Positions 7,125 through 61,650 of a DNA stretch of 64,000 nt are shown one piece after another. The notes beneath the pieces were generated by a model. That model was given only the letters and a program-made list of their open reading frames with translations, had not been told where the DNA came from and ran no database searches. How positions within the stretch are numbered: the first letter of the stretch is position 1; every line of letters starts with the position of its first letter. This DNA is from Pseudidiomarina tainanensis (GTDB lineage: Bacteria; Pseudomonadota; Gammaproteobacteria; Enterobacterales; Alteromonadaceae), in NCBI RefSeq assembly GCF_004214835.1, contig NZ_PIQJ01000001.1:620001-684000 (forward strand), given 5' to 3'. The position numbers and the translations under genes are program-made.

Positions 7125-7266
7125 TCGATATTAGCTATTAGATATTAGATATTAACACCAAGAGCTGAAAAGCAAAGACGATGTTAGCTATTAGCCACAA
7201 GATTTGAGAGCCGTTGTACCGAGTGTTTGTGTTTTCTCTAATATCTAATATCCAATAGCTAATATC
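7125..7266. repeat. Family A heptad inverted repeat, copy A1 (with a second left arm)
   Basis: The left arm at 7125-7154 is made of 7-bp units (GATATTA, GCTATTA, GATATTA, GATATTA). A degenerate second left arm at 7179-7208 keeps the same phase (GATGTTA, GCTATTA, GCCACAA, GATTTGA). One right arm lies at 7238-7266. The distance from the second left arm to the right arm matches other copies, so the first left arm seems an extra insertion. It lies in the divergent intergenic region. Confidence 0.85.
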
Positions 7267-14134: not shown

Positions 14135-14161
14135 AAGCCCGGCTTTACGCCGGGCTTTTTC
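14135..14161 (+). terminator. Rho-independent terminator after symporter
   Basis: Stem AAGCCCGGC/GCCGGGCTT with a 5-base loop, followed by a T-run that leads directly into the family B repeat. Confidence 0.9.
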
Positions 14162-14247
14162 GTTGTTCGTTATTCGTTAGTGGTTATTCGTTAAGGACTT
14201 TGATTTTTTTGCTTTTTCGAGTAACGATTAACGAATAACTAGTAACG
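14162..14247. repeat. Family B heptad inverted repeat, copy B1
   Basis: The left arm 14162-14196 consists of 7-bp units GTTGTTC, GTTATTC, GTTAGTG, GTTATTC, GTTAAGG. The right arm 14219-14247 reads GAGTAAC, GATTAAC, GAATAAC, TAGTAAC, i.e. the same heptads inverted. The centre is T-rich. It fills the gap between the symporter terminator and the next gene. Confidence 0.75.
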
Positions 14248-29055: not shown

Positions 29056-29084
29056 AATATGCCTGTTTTCCGACTGAAAGTCAA
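29056..29084 (-). promoter_or_regulatory. Likely rpsT promoter
   Basis: On the minus strand, -35 TTGACT (29079-29084) and -10 CATATT (29056-29061) are separated by 17 bases. The upstream edge is 3 bp from the left arm of the family A element. Confidence 0.6.
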
Positions 29085-29087
29085 GGA

Positions 29088-29553
29088 CGATATTAGCTAT
29101 TGGATATTAGATATTAGAAAAAAACGGGTAAGGTTACGTGATACAGGGAGGTGTTAATGTTTAAAGATTTGAAAGTTTATAAATCGGCGATGGACTTATG
29201 TGTATCAGTCTATAAGATAACTGATAGTTTTCCGGGACATGAATTATTTGGGCTCGTCAGTCAAATGCGGCGCGCCGTCGTTTCTGTGTCTAGCAACATA
29301 GCGGAAGGGGCTGGTAGGGGCTCTTATAGAGAACAAATAAGATTCTATTATATTGCTCGTGGTTCTCTTGCTGAGTTGGAAACCCAGCTCGAAATAAGTT
29401 TTCGATTAGGTTACGTCGAGTGTCGTTTACATACTGAAACTCGTTTCGTATATCGACTACTTAATGGTTTGATCAACTCAACTAAAAAGATGATGCTAGT
29501 AGAATCCGCTTAAGTAGGTTTTACTAATATCTAATATCCAATAGCTAATATCG
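29088..29553 (+). mobile_element. Family A element, gene-bearing copy A2
   Basis: Perfect 30-bp inverted repeats at 29088-29117 and 29524-29553, each built of four 7-bp units (left: GATATTA, GCTATTG, GATATTA, GATATTA). Between them lies one small gene with its own ribosome site. The two interior ends (a CGGGTA motif on the left; GGTTTTA before the right arm) are the same short motifs found in the spacers of the gene-less copies. I see no transposase motif and no clear target duplication. Mobility is inferred from dispersion and shared ends. Confidence 0.65.
29157..29513 (+). CDS. Four-helix-bundle protein (23S rRNA intervening sequence protein family)
   Basis: A 118-aa protein of the PF05635/TIGR02436 family, known from genes inside 23S rRNA intervening sequences and related to the Avd accessory proteins of diversity-generating retroelements. 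Conserved positions are easy to see: FKDLKVYKSAMDL, FPGHELFGLVSQMRRAVVS, the signature SNIAEGAGR, and ARGSLAELETQLE. Homologs form oligomeric helical bundles thought to bind nucleic acid. ATG 29157 has AGGGAGG six bases upstream; a GTG at 29151 is the alternative. No rRNA, reverse transcriptase or variable repeat is nearby. The gene is enclosed by the arms of element A2. Confidence 0.92.
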   Translation: MFKDLKVYKSAMDLCVSVYKITDSFPGHELFGLVSQMRRAVVSVSSNIAEGAGRGSYREQIRFYYIARGSLAELETQLEISFRLGYVECRLHTETRFVYRLLNGLINSTKKMMLVESA

Positions 29554-29567
29554 TACTTGAGGTTTCA

Positions 29568-31109
29568 TTGTCAAAGTCACTTGCTAAATCCGGCATCATT
29601 GTCAGCTTCATGACGCTCATATCGCGTGTGCTTGGGCTTGTGCGCGATGTGGTGATTGCGAATTTGATGGGGGCTGGGGCGGCGGCCGATGTGTTCTTCT
29701 TTGCGAACAAGATACCGAACTTTTTGCGTCGATTGTTTGCGGAAGGGGCGTTTGCGCAGGCGTTTGTGCCGGTACTGACGGAGTATAAGCAGGGGAAAAC
29801 GCTGGATGAACAGCGCTTGCTGATTGCTCGGGTGGCGGGTACGTTAGGTACGTTGGTTACGATTGTCACGCTGGTGGGTGTGATTGCATCACCCGTGGTG
29901 GCGGCGATGTTCGGTACGGGTTGGTTTCTGGATTGGTATCACGATGGTCCGCAAGGGCATAAGTTTGTGCTGGCGGCGGACTTGTTGCGTATTACGTTTC
30001 CGTATTTGTGGTTTATTACCTTTACCGCGCTGGCCGGTGCGATTTTAAATACGATTGGTAAATTTGCCGTGGCGGCATTTACGCCGGTATTTTTAAATAT
30101 CGCCATTATTGTTTTTGCGATTTGGCTTGGGCCGCAACTCGAACAACCGGAATACGCGTTGGCATGGGGTGTGTTTGTTGGCGGTGCCGTTCAATTTCTA
30201 TTTCAAATTCCGTTTTTAAAACGTGCGGGGTTGCTGGTGCGGCCGCGCTGGGGATGGCGCGATCCCGGGGTTACCAAAATCCGTACGTTGATGATTCCTG
30301 CGCTGTTTGGTGTGTCAGTGAGTCAGATTAACCTATTGCTCGATACGTTTATTGCGTCGTTTTTGATGAGCGGTTCGATTAGTTGGTTATATTACTCAGA
30401 CAGGTTACTAGAGTTTCCGCTTGGATTATTTGGGATTGCGATTGCGACGGTTATTTTACCGGCTTTAAGCTCACGTCATGTCGATAAGTCAGCCGAAGAG
30501 TTTAGTCGCACCCTTGATTGGGGGATTCGTACGGTCGTCTTGCTGGGTTTGCCAGCGATGTGCGGGTTGATTGTGCTTGCGGAACCGATGTTGATGGTGT
30601 TGTTCATGCGTGGCGAGTTCACGCCAGAAGATGCGCGCTTGGCCTCTTATAGTTTATTTGCGTATGGCTCGGGCTTGCTGAGCTTTATGTTGGTGAAGGT
30701 ATTGGCGACCGGGTTTTATTCACGGCAAGATACCAAGCGGCCAGTGAAGTACGGCATTATCGCCATGGTTTCAAACATGGTGTTCAATATCGTTTTCGCG
30801 ATTCCTTACGGCTATGTCGGTTTAGCCATAGCCACGTCTTTATCTGCCGCTGTGAATGCCGGTTTGTTGGGCTATAACCTGTGGCGCGACGGTGTGCTCA
30901 AACGTTACCCTGGAACCTTAACTTATCTCACGAAAGTAGCGCTTGCTGTGGCGACGATGGTCGCGGTCGTGCTGTATTTGGTGCCATCACGTTCTTGGTG
31001 GCTAGCTGCTGAATTTGTTGATCGAGCGTGGCAATTGTCGATGTTGATTGGCGCAGGGGCAGGGACGTATATGCTCTCTCTTATCCTCCTCCGCGTGAAG
31101 ATCCGTTAA
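29568..31109 (+). CDS. murJ: Lipid II flippase MurJ
   Basis: A 513-aa inner-membrane protein with about 14 transmembrane helices of the MOP/MVF family. It flips lipid II for peptidoglycan synthesis. Typical segments: SLAKSGIIVSFMTLISRVLGLVRD at the N-terminus, FFFANKIPNFLRRLFAEGAF and YSDRLLEFPLGLFGIAIATVILP. The start is TTG 29568 with TTGAGG 6 bases upstream, only 14 bp past the right arm of A2, so its leader is derived from or next to the element. The TAA stop lies in the first heptad of a family B arm. Confidence 0.96.
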   Translation: MSKSLAKSGIIVSFMTLISRVLGLVRDVVIANLMGAGAAADVFFFANKIPNFLRRLFAEGAFAQAFVPVLTEYKQGKTLDEQRLLIARVAGTLGTLVTIVTLVGVIASPVVAAMFGTGWFLDWYHDGPQGHKFVLAADLLRITFPYLWFITFTALAGAILNTIGKFAVAAFTPVFLNIAIIVFAIWLGPQLEQPEYALAWGVFVGGAVQFLFQIPFLKRAGLLVRPRWGWRDPGVTKIRTLMIPALFGVSVSQINLLLDTFIASFLMSGSISWLYYSDRLLEFPLGLFGIAIATVILPALSSRHVDKSAEEFSRTLDWGIRTVVLLGLPAMCGLIVLAEPMLMVLFMRGEFTPEDARLASYSLFAYGSGLLSFMLVKVLATGFYSRQDTKRPVKYGIIAMVSNMVFNIVFAIPYGYVGLAIATSLSAAVNAGLLGYNLWRDGVLKRYPGTLTYLTKVALAVATMVAVVLYLVPSRSWWLAAEFVDRAWQLSMLIGAGAGTYMLSLILLRVKIR

Positions 31110-31133
31110 TCGTTATTCGTTATTGGTTATTCG
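31105..31133 (+). repeat. Family B heptad arm B2 (no partner arm seen)
   Basis: Units GTTAATC, GTTATTC, GTTATTG, GTTATTC in phase. The murJ stop codon TAA (31107-31109) is inside the first unit. Possible remnants GGTATTC, GTTGTTG follow at 31147-31160. No inverted right arm is seen nearby. Confidence 0.6.
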
Positions 31134-31189
31134 TAAAAGCGAAAGCGGTATTCGTTGTTGAGGCTTGAGTTGACTGAGAGGGAACTAAG

Positions 31190-32290: not shown

Positions 32291-32327
32291 CTAATATCCA
32301 ATATCCAATATCTAATAGCTAATATCG
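32291..32327 (+). repeat. Family A solo right arm A3 with five heptads
   Basis: Units TAATATC, CAATATC, CAATATC, TAATAGC, TAATATC in perfect 7-bp phase, one unit more than the other arms. No left arm is found within the preceding gene or gap. It is followed by a T-rich tail. Confidence 0.75.
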
Positions 32328-33104: not shown

Positions 33105-34037
33105 ATGCAGTTAATTCGCGGAATTCATAATATTCGACCTCAGCACCGTGGGTGTGTACTTACTATCGGCAACTTTGATGGTGTCCATTTGGGCCATCAG
33201 GCAGTGTTGGCGCAGGTAAAAGCGCAGGCGCTCGCGCGCGGCGTTCCGGCGACGGTGATGACGTTTGAGCCGCAGCCGCAAGAGCTGTTTCAACCGGATA
33301 AAGCACCGGCCCGATTAACTAATTTTCGTGAAAAGCACATGGCACTGCGTCAGCAGGGTATTGACCGCCATATTGTGATTGAATTTAATCGCAAGTTTTC
33401 TAATCTGCCGGCGCGCGAATTTATTGAACGTGTGTTGGTTGATATGCTCGGCGTACAATTCTTGGTGGTTGGCGATGATTTCCGCTTCGGTCATGGTCGC
33501 GAAGGCGATTTCGCGATGTTGCAACGCGCGGGCGCTGAGCTTGGCTTTGAAGTGGTGGACACGCAAAGTTATCGCCAACAACAGCAACGGGTTAGTAGCA
33601 CCGCAATACGCCAGTGTTTAAGTGATGGTGATTTTACTCAGGCGGCAGCCATGTTAGGGCGACCTTATGCTTTCGGAGGGCGCGTTGTGCATGGTGAGAA
33701 AAAGGGTCGTACTATCGGCTTTCCAACCGCAAATATTCAGTTAAAGCGCTTGCGTTCACCCTTACAAGGGGTTTTTGCTGTGCAGGTGCAAACCAATGAT
33801 GGCAAAATGCATGCAGGCGTTGCTAATATTGGTAGACGGCCAACATTAAATGGTGAGCGAGTGCAGCTCGAGGTGCATTTGTTCGATTTTGCGGGCGATT
33901 TGTATGGGCAGCAATTGCGCGTGGTGCCAACGCACTTTATTCGCGCTGAACAAAAATTCGCGAATTTCGCGCAACTACAGCAACAAATCGCCGCTGACGC
34001 TGAAAAGGCAAAGGCGATATTAGCTATTCGATATTAG
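33105..34037 (+). CDS. ribF: Bifunctional riboflavin kinase / FAD synthetase
   Basis: A 310-aa enzyme making FMN and FAD from riboflavin. The N-terminal adenylyltransferase domain has TIGNFDGVHLGHQ and the SSTAIRQ motif; the C-terminal kinase domain has GRVVHGEKKGRTIGFPTANI and IGRRPTLNG. It starts the ribF-ileS-lspA-fkpB-ispH cluster typical of gammaproteobacteria. The last codons (KAILAIRY and the stop TAG) are encoded by the left arm of family A copy A4, so the element has replaced or extended the natural C-terminus. Confidence 0.96.
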   Translation: MQLIRGIHNIRPQHRGCVLTIGNFDGVHLGHQAVLAQVKAQALARGVPATVMTFEPQPQELFQPDKAPARLTNFREKHMALRQQGIDRHIVIEFNRKFSNLPAREFIERVLVDMLGVQFLVVGDDFRFGHGREGDFAMLQRAGAELGFEVVDTQSYRQQQQRVSSTAIRQCLSDGDFTQAAAMLGRPYAFGGRVVHGEKKGRTIGFPTANIQLKRLRSPLQGVFAVQVQTNDGKMHAGVANIGRRPTLNGERVQLEVHLFDFAGDLYGQQLRVVPTHFIRAEQKFANFAQLQQQIAADAEKAKAILAIRY

Positions 34038-34102
34038 ATATTAGAGCTGATGTTTCGGGTAATTGTGTTTTGTCTAATATCAAATATCGAATAGCTAATA
34101 TC
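34015..34102 (+). repeat. Family A heptad inverted repeat, copy A4
   Basis: Left arm 34015-34044 and right arm 34074-34102 flank a short spacer with the family motif TTTCGGGTAATTGTG. The left arm overlaps the 3' end of ribF. A unit-junction change (TTCG on the left, CGAA on the right) is matched in both arms. Confidence 0.9.
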
Positions 34103-37974: not shown

Positions 37975-38063
37975 CGATATTGGCTATTGGATATTAGATA
38001 TTAGAACTGATGTATCGGGTATTTGTGTTTTCGCTAATATCTAATATCCAATAGCTAATATCG
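37975..38063 (+). repeat. Family A heptad inverted repeat, copy A5
   Basis: Left arm 37975-38004 and right arm 38034-38063 are near-perfect inverse copies (one G:T difference) around a spacer with GATGTATCGGGTATTTGTG. The right arm ends 14 bp before the ispH start codon. Confidence 0.92.
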
Positions 38064-39028: not shown

Positions 39029-39117
39029 CGATACTAGCTATTGGATATTAGATATTAGAAACGATGCATCGGGTATTTGTGTTTCCTCTAATATCTAATA
39101 TCTAATAGCTAATATCG
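39029..39117. repeat. Family A heptad inverted repeat, copy A6
   Basis: Left arm 39029-39058 and right arm 39088-39117 lie between the convergent ispH and pilin genes. The flanks extend the inverted repeat imperfectly (AAAACCAAATA on the left, CTTTCGGTTTT on the right), which would give a T-tract after the hairpin on both strands. Confidence 0.9.
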
Positions 39118-50830: not shown

Positions 50831-50945
50831 AAAGCGTTGTTCGTTGTTCGTACGCTGCGCTGTTTGTCCGCTTCGCTATTCGAAGAGTGCGAAGCACGGA
50901 CGAACAGTGAACGCAGTGAACGTACGAATAACGAATAACGTTTTT
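50831..50945. repeat. Family B palindrome, copy B3
   Basis: A 115-bp near-palindrome between ccmI and mlaA. The outer left arm has two GTTGTTC heptads (50836-50849), the outer right arm two GAATAAC heptads (50926-50939), and the ends are an A-run and a T-run. The inner part pairs GTCCG-CTTCGC with GCGAAG-CACGGAC with small insertions on the right arm. It can fold into one long hairpin and may terminate ccm transcription. Confidence 0.8.
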
Positions 50946-60558: not shown

Positions 60559-61578
60559 ATGATTGAGCCAGATCGAATTAATCAGCCGCAGGCGAGTAGC
60601 GAAGACGAGGTTATTGATCGTGCTATTCGGCCGAAGCAACTTGCCGACTATACCGGGCAGAAGCATGTGGTTGAGCAAATGGAAATTTTCATTCAGGCCG
60701 CTAAGCAGCGATCTGAGGCGCTTGATCATGTCTTAATATTCGGTCCGCCGGGTCTTGGAAAAACTACTTTAGCAAATATTGTCGCCAATGAATTAAACGT
60801 AAATATCCGGCAAACTTCAGGGCCAGTGCTGGAAAAAGCGGGCGATCTTGCGGCATTGTTAACTAATCTAGAAGAGCACGATGTGCTTTTTATTGATGAG
60901 ATTCACCGTTTGAGTCCGGTGGTCGAAGAGATTTTGTATCCAGCGATGGAAGATTATCAATTGGATATTATGATTGGCGAAGGTCCTGCTGCCCGTTCAA
61001 TCAAATTAGATTTGCCGCCATTTACATTGGTGGGTGCGACAACTAGGGCAGGGGCTTTGACGTCACCGCTTCGCGATCGGTTTGGGATTGTGCAGCGCCT
61101 TGAGTTTTATAACGTGGAAGAACTCACCACGATTATTCGCCGCTCTGCTAAATTCCTGAACTTAGATTTAGAAGCCGAGGGCGCTCTAGAAATCGCTCGT
61201 CGCTCACGCGGTACGCCGCGAATTGCGAATCGCTTATTGCGCCGAGTACGAGATTTCGCCGAAGTGAAGAATAGCGGTCATATTGATCAGCCAACGGCCG
61301 CAGCGGCACTTGCTATGGTTGATGTTGACGAAGCTGGTTTCGATTACATGGATCGTAAATTACTGCTCGCCATTATTGAAAAGTTTATGGGGGGACCAGT
61401 CGGGTTAGATAACTTGGCCGCCGCCATTGGCGAAGAGAAAGATACGATTGAGGATGTGTTGGAGCCGTATTTGATTCAGCAGGGCTTTTTGCAGCGAACG
61501 CCGCGGGGACGCATTGCAACACCACACGCCTATGCCCACTTCGGCTTAGGCAAAGGCAAAGACGATATTAGCAATTAG
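60559..61578 (+). CDS. ruvB: Holliday junction branch migration helicase RuvB
   Basis: A 339-aa AAA+ ATPase. Walker [13 protein letters not shown], Walker [15 protein letters not shown], sensor 1 [19 protein letters not shown], and a C-terminal winged helix ([16 protein letters not shown]). The ribosome site GAGG lies just past the REP block. The final codons (DISN and stop) are encoded by the left arm of family A copy A7. Confidence 0.97.
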
Positions 61579-61650
61579 ATATTGGATATTAGCGTTGCAG
61601 TATCGGGTTTTTGGGTTTCACTAATATCAAATATCCGATAGCTAATATCG
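61563..61650 (+). repeat. Family A heptad inverted repeat, copy A7
   Basis: Left arm 61563-61592 and right arm 61621-61650 with several unit changes flank a spacer containing GTATCGGGTTTTTGGGTTT. The left arm overlaps the ruvB stop codon. Confidence 0.9.

Follow-up and report, generated by a model that had tools for sequence, protein, structure and literature searches.

MITEs and insertion sequences have terminal inverted repeats and occur with gene-less copies. In REPIN/RAYT systems, a gene likewise stands beside its repeats, which are dispersed as extragenic inverted hairpin doublets and also form tandem clusters that include flanking sequence (Bertels and Rainey 2011, PMC3116915). The protein family PF05635 (IVP or S23p) is known from the 23S rRNA intervening sequence, a stem-loop insert regarded as selfish (PMC4990558), and is common near diversity-generating retroelements (DGRs), whose protein Avd (4dwl, 8ub7) has a four-helix-bundle fold and a nucleic-acid-related role in common with it (PMC10053308). 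Over-representation of 7-bp repeats in bacteria has been noted since at least 2007 (Mrazek, via PMC4679880). Xcc contains 186 intergenic heptamer arrays, mostly of four units and including 70 inverted pairs, with no role established in the main text of the report (Rehm 2015, PMC4692102), which also found the plasmids of Xac and Nostoc PCC 7120 to be free of arrays of this kind. TAACTGA repeats form intergenic 7-mer arrays as well (MacGregor 2015, PMC4679880). The origin of heptamer repeats is ascribed to slippage or left open in these two reports, and the terms S23, helix bundle and intervening are absent from their main texts.

The DNA analysed here ("the window") is a 64,000-nt stretch of the genome of Pseudidiomarina tainanensis. 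An initial annotation of the window had described a lone four-helix-bundle gene enclosed by exact 30-bp inverted arms, each made of the 7-bp units GATATTA, GCTATTG, GATATTA and GATATTA. This description was borne out: the arms are exact reverse complements, the units read as claimed, and the gene matched PF05635 with an E value of 1.7e-34, a profile search giving it as the sole match in the 2.37-Mb genome. Pairing of the arms reaches 42 nt at 95% complementarity (29081-29122 with 29519-29560), and when 29078-29563 was folded the arms made one long stem closing the IVP gene (z -6.25). The protein genes on either side are presumably rpsT and murJ, judging by the protein sequences. The features are given below with their evidence in brackets; congeneric genomes carry G numbers.

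29081-29560, plus strand: whole unit with extended 42-nt, 95% inverted ends (repeat search, folding)
29088-29117, plus strand: left arm, exact 30-bp inverted repeat of 7-bp units (sequence reading, repeat search)
29157-29513, plus strand: IVP gene for a 118-aa four-helix-bundle protein (match to PF05635, 23S_rRNA_IVP; AlphaFold2; PDB 2gsc)
29524-29553, minus strand: right arm, exact reverse complement of the left arm (sequence reading, repeat search)
29568-31109: ORF to the right of the IVP unit, which we take to be murJ
7127-7266, no strand assigned: gene-less GATATTA hairpin with extra internal material (arm search, pair collection)
14156-14246, no strand assigned: gene-less hairpin of the TTCGTTA family, where G131 has a GATATTA hairpin (relatives)
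31104-31134, plus strand: single TTCGTTA-family array at the 3' end of the presumed murJ ORF
32292-32326, minus strand: single GATATTA arm (arm search)
34016-34102, plus strand: gene-less GATATTA hairpin, its left arm overlapping the 3' end of ORF 33105-34037, presumably ribF (arm search, folding, relatives)
37976-38062, plus strand: gene-less hairpin; site empty in the IVP-less G102 and G026, and no hairpin in the IVP-bearing G151 (arm search, relatives)
39030-39116, plus strand: gene-less GATATTA hairpin; site without hairpin in G187, G102, G151 and G026 (arm search, relatives)
50835-50940, no strand assigned: degenerate mixed heptamer hairpin
61564-61649, plus strand: gene-less GATATTA hairpin, where G070 has one of the TTCGTTA type (arm search, relatives)

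The AlphaFold2 model of the protein has four helices and a mean pLDDT of 96.1. Foldseek matched it to 2gsc (XCC0516 of X. campestris; TM 0.89, 41% identity) and to 2rld and, at lower significance, to DGR Avd (4dwl; TM 0.75, E 0.14); chains of the DGR RNP were also among the matches listed. We know of no catalytic activity of the four-helix IVP fold. The Xanthomonas protein is reported to be a toroidal homopentamer (PMC4990558).

Each of the known systems shares part of this anatomy. The traits listed above for REPIN/RAYT recur here, but the only gene of the unit belongs to PF05635 and encodes no Y1 transposase, and the arms are 7-mer arrays whose word varies by genome; moreover, the window's genome also has a RAYT with repeats of its own, and heptamer presence does not follow Y1_Tnp. 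As in the 23S rRNA intervening sequence, an IVP/S23p ORF is closed by a long stem. Unlike that insert, the unit is intergenic between protein genes and not within an rRNA helix, its stems are heptamer arrays, and it has dispersed gene-less copies as well as related units on plasmids. In contrast to DGRs, the window's genome has no RVT_1 match at E <= 0.001. With MITEs and insertion sequences the unit shares inverted ends and gene-less copies, and one related plasmid unit is flanked by a target duplication; its terminal repeats, however, are arrays, and it holds no recognised transposase, the search for a parent transposase covering Y1_Tnp. Period-7 arrays that are intergenic and mostly of about four units also characterize heptanucleotide simple-sequence repeats, and those of Xanthomonas likewise include many convergent pairs (PMC4692102). 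The IVP arms of the Luteimonas family use words that are the same as or close to those of Xanthomonas (GGGAATC, GGGATTC, GGGACTC), the latter being known here from PMC4692102 alone, and the arms on Nostocales plasmids use other, often G-rich heptamers.

Copies of the arms were found well beyond the gene. The 28-bp arm core, with at most three mismatches, matched the window 14 times, compared with no match in 100 shuffles. These matches lie at the gene unit and at six other sites (7127, 32292, 34016, 37976, 39030 and 61564), in agreement with the six further, mostly gene-less places counted in the initial annotation, and their location at gene ends and in short operon gaps is likewise as it had described. 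Five of the six are inverted pairs of 86-140 bp, and 32292 is a single arm matched in two registers. Long stems were obtained for the four window pairs that were folded (z -4.8 to -11). A genome-wide count gave 153 arm matches, 83 forward and 70 reverse, for the one IVP gene, and a reversed-pattern control gave none. From the fetched parts of the genome, 36 inverted GATATTA pairs were extracted by script, several of which are nested pairings at one site. The commonest loop of the gene-less copies is 30-31 nt long with a shared motif near GATGTATCGGGTATTTGTGTTT, and the remaining loops differ. Outward, the arms extend for ~13 bp as looser inverted sequence, near AAAAGCAARGRC on the left and its complement on the right; the gene unit has the arms and part of these outer ends in common with the gene-less copies. 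Loops and ends common to the copies suggest copying of units rather than independent slippage. A second heptamer family of the TTCGTTA type, which the initial annotation did not contain, has 44 matches in the genome and occurs in the window at 14156-14246 and 31104-31134. Elsewhere in the genome (G000:C5:244713-245004, L021), a 41-bp unit consisting of an arm and its outer 13 bp is repeated head-to-tail in an evenly spaced array.

Among seven genomes of the genus, a profile search revealed an IVP match in five, G026 and G102 being the IVP-less ones. GATATTA arm matches numbered 153 in the window's genome (G000), 93 in G131, 62 in G070 and 31 in G187, with none in G151, G026 or G102, and TTCGTTA matches numbered 44 in G000, 151 in G070, 20 in G131, 45 in G151, 51 in G187, 0 in G026 and 1 in G102. 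With both words together, the two IVP-less species thus have 0 and 1 heptamer matches in all. The initial annotation had stated that arms found only here, or fixed in all relatives, would count against a mobile element; the arms do occur beyond this genome and are absent from some relatives. In an unrooted 13-gene tree, the IVP-bearing G151 grouped with the IVP-less G026, and the IVP-less G102 joined next to them; therefore, IVP presence changed at least twice. Two IVP types occupy the rpsT-murJ site: in G000 and G070, the gene is of the first type and its arms are of GATATTA, whereas in G131, G187 and G151 it is of a second type, 47-55% identical to the other, and its arms are of TTCGTTA. Hairpin counts do not simply mirror the resident IVP, as G070 has 151 TTCGTTA against 62 GATATTA matches and G131 has 93 GATATTA against 20 TTCGTTA matches.

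At site 37976, the upstream stop and the downstream start overlap in G102 and G026, and no hairpin is present. Eleven sites, the gene unit aside, were comparable between G000 and G070, units 7129, 31104, 32290 and 68592 having no usable anchor in G070; four of these carried the same word, six different words (one weakly) and one a mixture. Orthologous hairpin sites are stable while the word changes. Different heptamer words at the same intergenic sites were also seen at 14156-14246 and 61564-61649 and their orthologues in G070, G131 and G187. Different words at one orthologous site also fit an overwriting of old sites.

IVP loci from many phyla were then compared, as judged by the record titles, using the best 80 of 581 confirmed loci from an alignment search. 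Within 400-bp flanks, a lag-7 autocorrelation of at least 14 was found for 37/80 IVP genes and for 76/714 control ORFs of the same loci. The corresponding figures were 13/80 and 16/714 at lag 8 and 3 and 6 at lag 9, and lags 3-6 and 10-13 gave at most 1/80. At a lower threshold and lags 7-9, these 80 loci had arrays on both sides in 41 cases, on one side in 28 and on neither in 11. The upstream array matched the reverse complement of the downstream array (score at least 14) at 40 of 75 loci, five of the 80 having less than 150 bp on one side, and such a match occurred in 0/442 mismatched pairs; a match in direct orientation was present at 10/75 loci. The flanking word varies between the genomes of these best 80 loci, and the arrays are sometimes 8- or 9-mers. 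Four or five units make up 52 of 81 arrays from these loci and 30 of 38 from the Luteimonas family, and the longest array has 27 units. Words of the IVP arms recurred elsewhere in their own locus 49 times against 13.1 expected, based on 58 of the 80 loci, namely those with an array and with distant sequence of 3 kb or more, and ten of the 58 had two or more recurrences. In Geobacter AOG1, the IVP word has 38 matches, of which 17 lie in the arms of the gene itself and the other 21 in ~14 further places. Five further genomes gave 0, 0, 0, 5 and 61 matches to the IVP word, the 61 being for CGGGAAT in Luteimonas, a related word that differs from the one flanking the IVP gene fetched there (L125). 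All five matches of the Gaetbulibacter word bracket the IVP gene. The association between IVP and heptamer arrays is well supported.

A comparison in the window's own family, with one IVP gene from each of 30 genomes (30 of 44 matches), gave 12/30 loci passing the inverted-repeat threshold; five shuffles of each locus yielded at most 12. Random 20-kb stretches of this family contained arrays in 2/20 IVP-bearing and 0/18 IVP-less genomes (18 of 20 stretches were obtained for the latter, owing to short contigs). Four-helix genes lacking arms had been named in the initial annotation as evidence against its reading, and here the outcome is divided: arms are matched at 40/75 loci of many phyla, but 18/30 loci of the window's family fall below the threshold and 11/80 loci are free of arrays.

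In the Luteimonas family, IVP is present in 63/149 genomes. Matched inverted arms were found at 26 of 30 fetched loci and in 0/30 with shuffled flanks; mismatched partners also passed in 35/147, because words are common to loci in this family. A first reading took in 23 of the 30, a motif search having missed seven, and was redone motif-free on all 30; the 38 arrays counted above are from the 23. The arms mostly have about four units of GGGACTC, GGGACCC, GGGATTC, GGGAATC, GTGATTC and others. At least 20 arrays of the GGGANTC type were present in 47/63 IVP-bearing and 8/86 IVP-less genomes (Fisher 7.4e-17, kinship ignored). Counted over whole genomes with a degenerate three-unit pattern, the median was 145 with IVP and 0 without, and a reversed control pattern averaged 4.0 and 0.2, respectively. 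Fewer than five pattern matches were found in 12/63 IVP-bearing genomes, and in three of these the fetched arms (L251, L257, L258) consist of words outside the pattern. Random 20-kb stretches had lag-7 arrays in 7/20 IVP-bearing and 0/16 IVP-less genomes (16 of 20 obtained, owing to short contigs), and at lags 5, 6 and 8-12 these stretches showed no significant difference between the two groups.

Plasmids allowed occupied and empty sites to be compared. Among 72,556 plasmids, 31 records contained an IVP relative, 29 of them cyanobacterial by name. Twelve of the 31, chosen by hand, were fetched for their arms, two of which (L303 and L311) represent the same insertion. Matched inverted arms were present in all 12, with scores of 15-31 obtained without a shuffle control, and the best period was 7, weakly so in two. 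Gene-free counterparts were sought at six of the 12 sites, and 12 of the records found were fetched. A unit shared by Trichormus and Scytonema plasmids is missing from Aulosira and Tolypothrix plasmids that are ~97.5% identical around the site. The insert (423 bp in Trichormus, 409 bp in Scytonema) ends at the arrays and is flanked by GTAAT, of which the empty sites have one copy; the four pairings examined all record the same event. A further relative (L314) carries a truncated remnant of the unit. The unit inserted at L303/L311 arrives with both arms. For Nostoc ATCC 53789, the script comparison left 16 bp unmatched, and by eye TTCTA flanks the unit and is single in the relative, although TTCTA may be part of the element's end. 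In the remaining four comparisons, the relative lacks the unit, 11-42 bp at the border are unmatched and no duplication is clear. A target duplication, the 5-bp GTAAT, is accordingly unambiguous at one of the six plasmid sites. That gene units move is supported by the plasmid comparisons, one of which gives an exact insertion and several of which give inexact ones. The comparison of occupied and empty sites called for in the initial annotation thus yielded an exact border with a GTAAT duplication on a plasmid but no clean empty site for the window's own unit in the two IVP-less relatives, G102 and G026, because their rpsT-murJ gap holds other genes. By eye, these are a TonB-receptor-like ORF in G102 and another ORF in G026, which are unrelated genes. 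At the site of the Nostoc C052 gene unit, the Nostoc ATCC 53789 plasmid pNsp_c (L318) carries heptamer arrays but no IVP gene. The phage collection contained no IVP match.

The initial annotation had proposed a self-contained unit of gene and arms with dispersed gene-less copies, and the copy counts, relatives, other phyla and plasmid sites agree with it. We consider it probable that the locus belongs, as the member with the gene, to a family of miniature mobile elements in which IVP would drive the spread of hairpins. The element would be an inverted pair of heptamer arrays, with arms of 28-30 bp and ~13 bp of looser inverted sequence outside them. Between the arms there would be either a short loop, as in the dispersed, putatively non-autonomous copies, or the IVP gene, as in the presumed master copy. 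The IVP protein, whose solved relative is a pentamer, may recognise the array, most likely in hairpin or single-stranded form and with about one 7-nt unit per subunit; the latter is proposed because the arrays most often have four or five units. IVP could then act in trans to copy or insert hairpins, and host enzymes would supply the chemistry, since no gene for a recognised nuclease, transposase or reverse transcriptase lies in the unit.

The foremost alternative, although an unlikely one, is that IVP is a nucleic-acid-binding regulator of RNA stability, termination or translation and that the hairpins are selected binding sites moved by other means. Their position at gene ends and in short operon gaps and the retention of sites while the word changes are consistent with such a role, and MacGregor suggested a translational role for TAACTGA repeats (PMC4679880). 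A regulator gene, however, need not be flanked by inverted copies of the sites it serves, as IVP genes are in many phyla, and this reading accounts poorly for whole gene units being present or absent at orthologous plasmid sites and for sites being empty in IVP-less relatives. We give a still smaller chance to an origin of the arrays by polymerase slippage and template switching, with the IVP gene as a passenger that landed in or near them. Slippage was proposed by Mrazek 2007 (summarised in PMC4679880 and PMC4692102) and would fit arrays of up to 27 units and arm duplications with a 41-bp period, but it does not predict matched inverted arrays around one gene family (40/75 versus 0/442). The confinement of the Gaetbulibacter word to the gene's two flanks, the loops common to copies and the clean insertion of a unit also argue against it.

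Two further alternatives assign the movement to known enzymes. Movement by reverse transcription of hairpin RNA, in which IVP would partner a reverse transcriptase in the manner of Avd, is suggested by the resemblance of IVP to DGR Avd (4dwl; TM 0.75, E 0.14), by PF05635 being common near DGRs (PMC10053308) and by G187, where one of two RVT_1 matches (L212 and L213, the sole ones among the seven genus genomes) lies ~2.2 kb from the IVP gene. Against this, G000, G070, G131, G151, G026 and G102 have no RVT_1 match at E <= 0.001, and we regard this route as very unlikely. The least probable explanation is that a RAYT (Y1 transposase) or another transposase moves the hairpins, the IVP unit being one more copy. 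The hairpin anatomy is REPIN-like, and five of the seven genus genomes, including that of the window, have Y1_Tnp matches; yet G070 and G187, which are rich in hairpins, lack a Y1_Tnp match, and one is present in each of G102 and G026, where heptamer matches number 0 or 1. In addition, the RAYT genes of G000 and G102 (L209 and L210; two flanks were read) stand amid their own GC-rich palindromes. RAYT is accordingly disfavoured as the driver, both by the Y1_Tnp distribution and by the repeats beside the RAYT genes of G000 and G102.

Beyond the reading of this locus as a miniature mobile element, a wider proposal can be made tentatively, with prospects just short of even. IVP with heptamer arms may represent a widespread, unrecognised class of miniature mobile elements without a classical recombinase of their own and may be the source of heptanucleotide repeats that litter genomes, such as the GGGNATC type in Xanthomonas and Nostoc; each subunit of the pentamer would read one 7-nt unit of an array in single-stranded or hairpin form, so that the period would be fixed at 7 and the word left free to evolve. 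If so, a large protein family best known from rRNA inserts and for its kinship to a DGR accessory protein would gain a function, the over-representation of 7-bp repeats in bacteria, including the heptanucleotide repeats of Xanthomonas and Nostoc, would have a possible explanation, and there would be a class of mobile elements whose only gene encodes no known recombinase. Among the matches listed in a search of mostly non-subscription literature without bioRxiv, no paper linked PF05635 or S23 proteins to heptamer repeats; since subscription papers and preprints lay outside the search, this is weak evidence of novelty.

Two minor observations concern the surroundings of the repeats. In G102 and G131, palindromes like those of the RAYT genes occupy some of the sites at which relatives have heptamer hairpins. 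On two cyanobacterial plasmids (L307 and L309), an IVP gene with heptamer arms lies between cas6 and cas4 of type I-D CRISPR operons.
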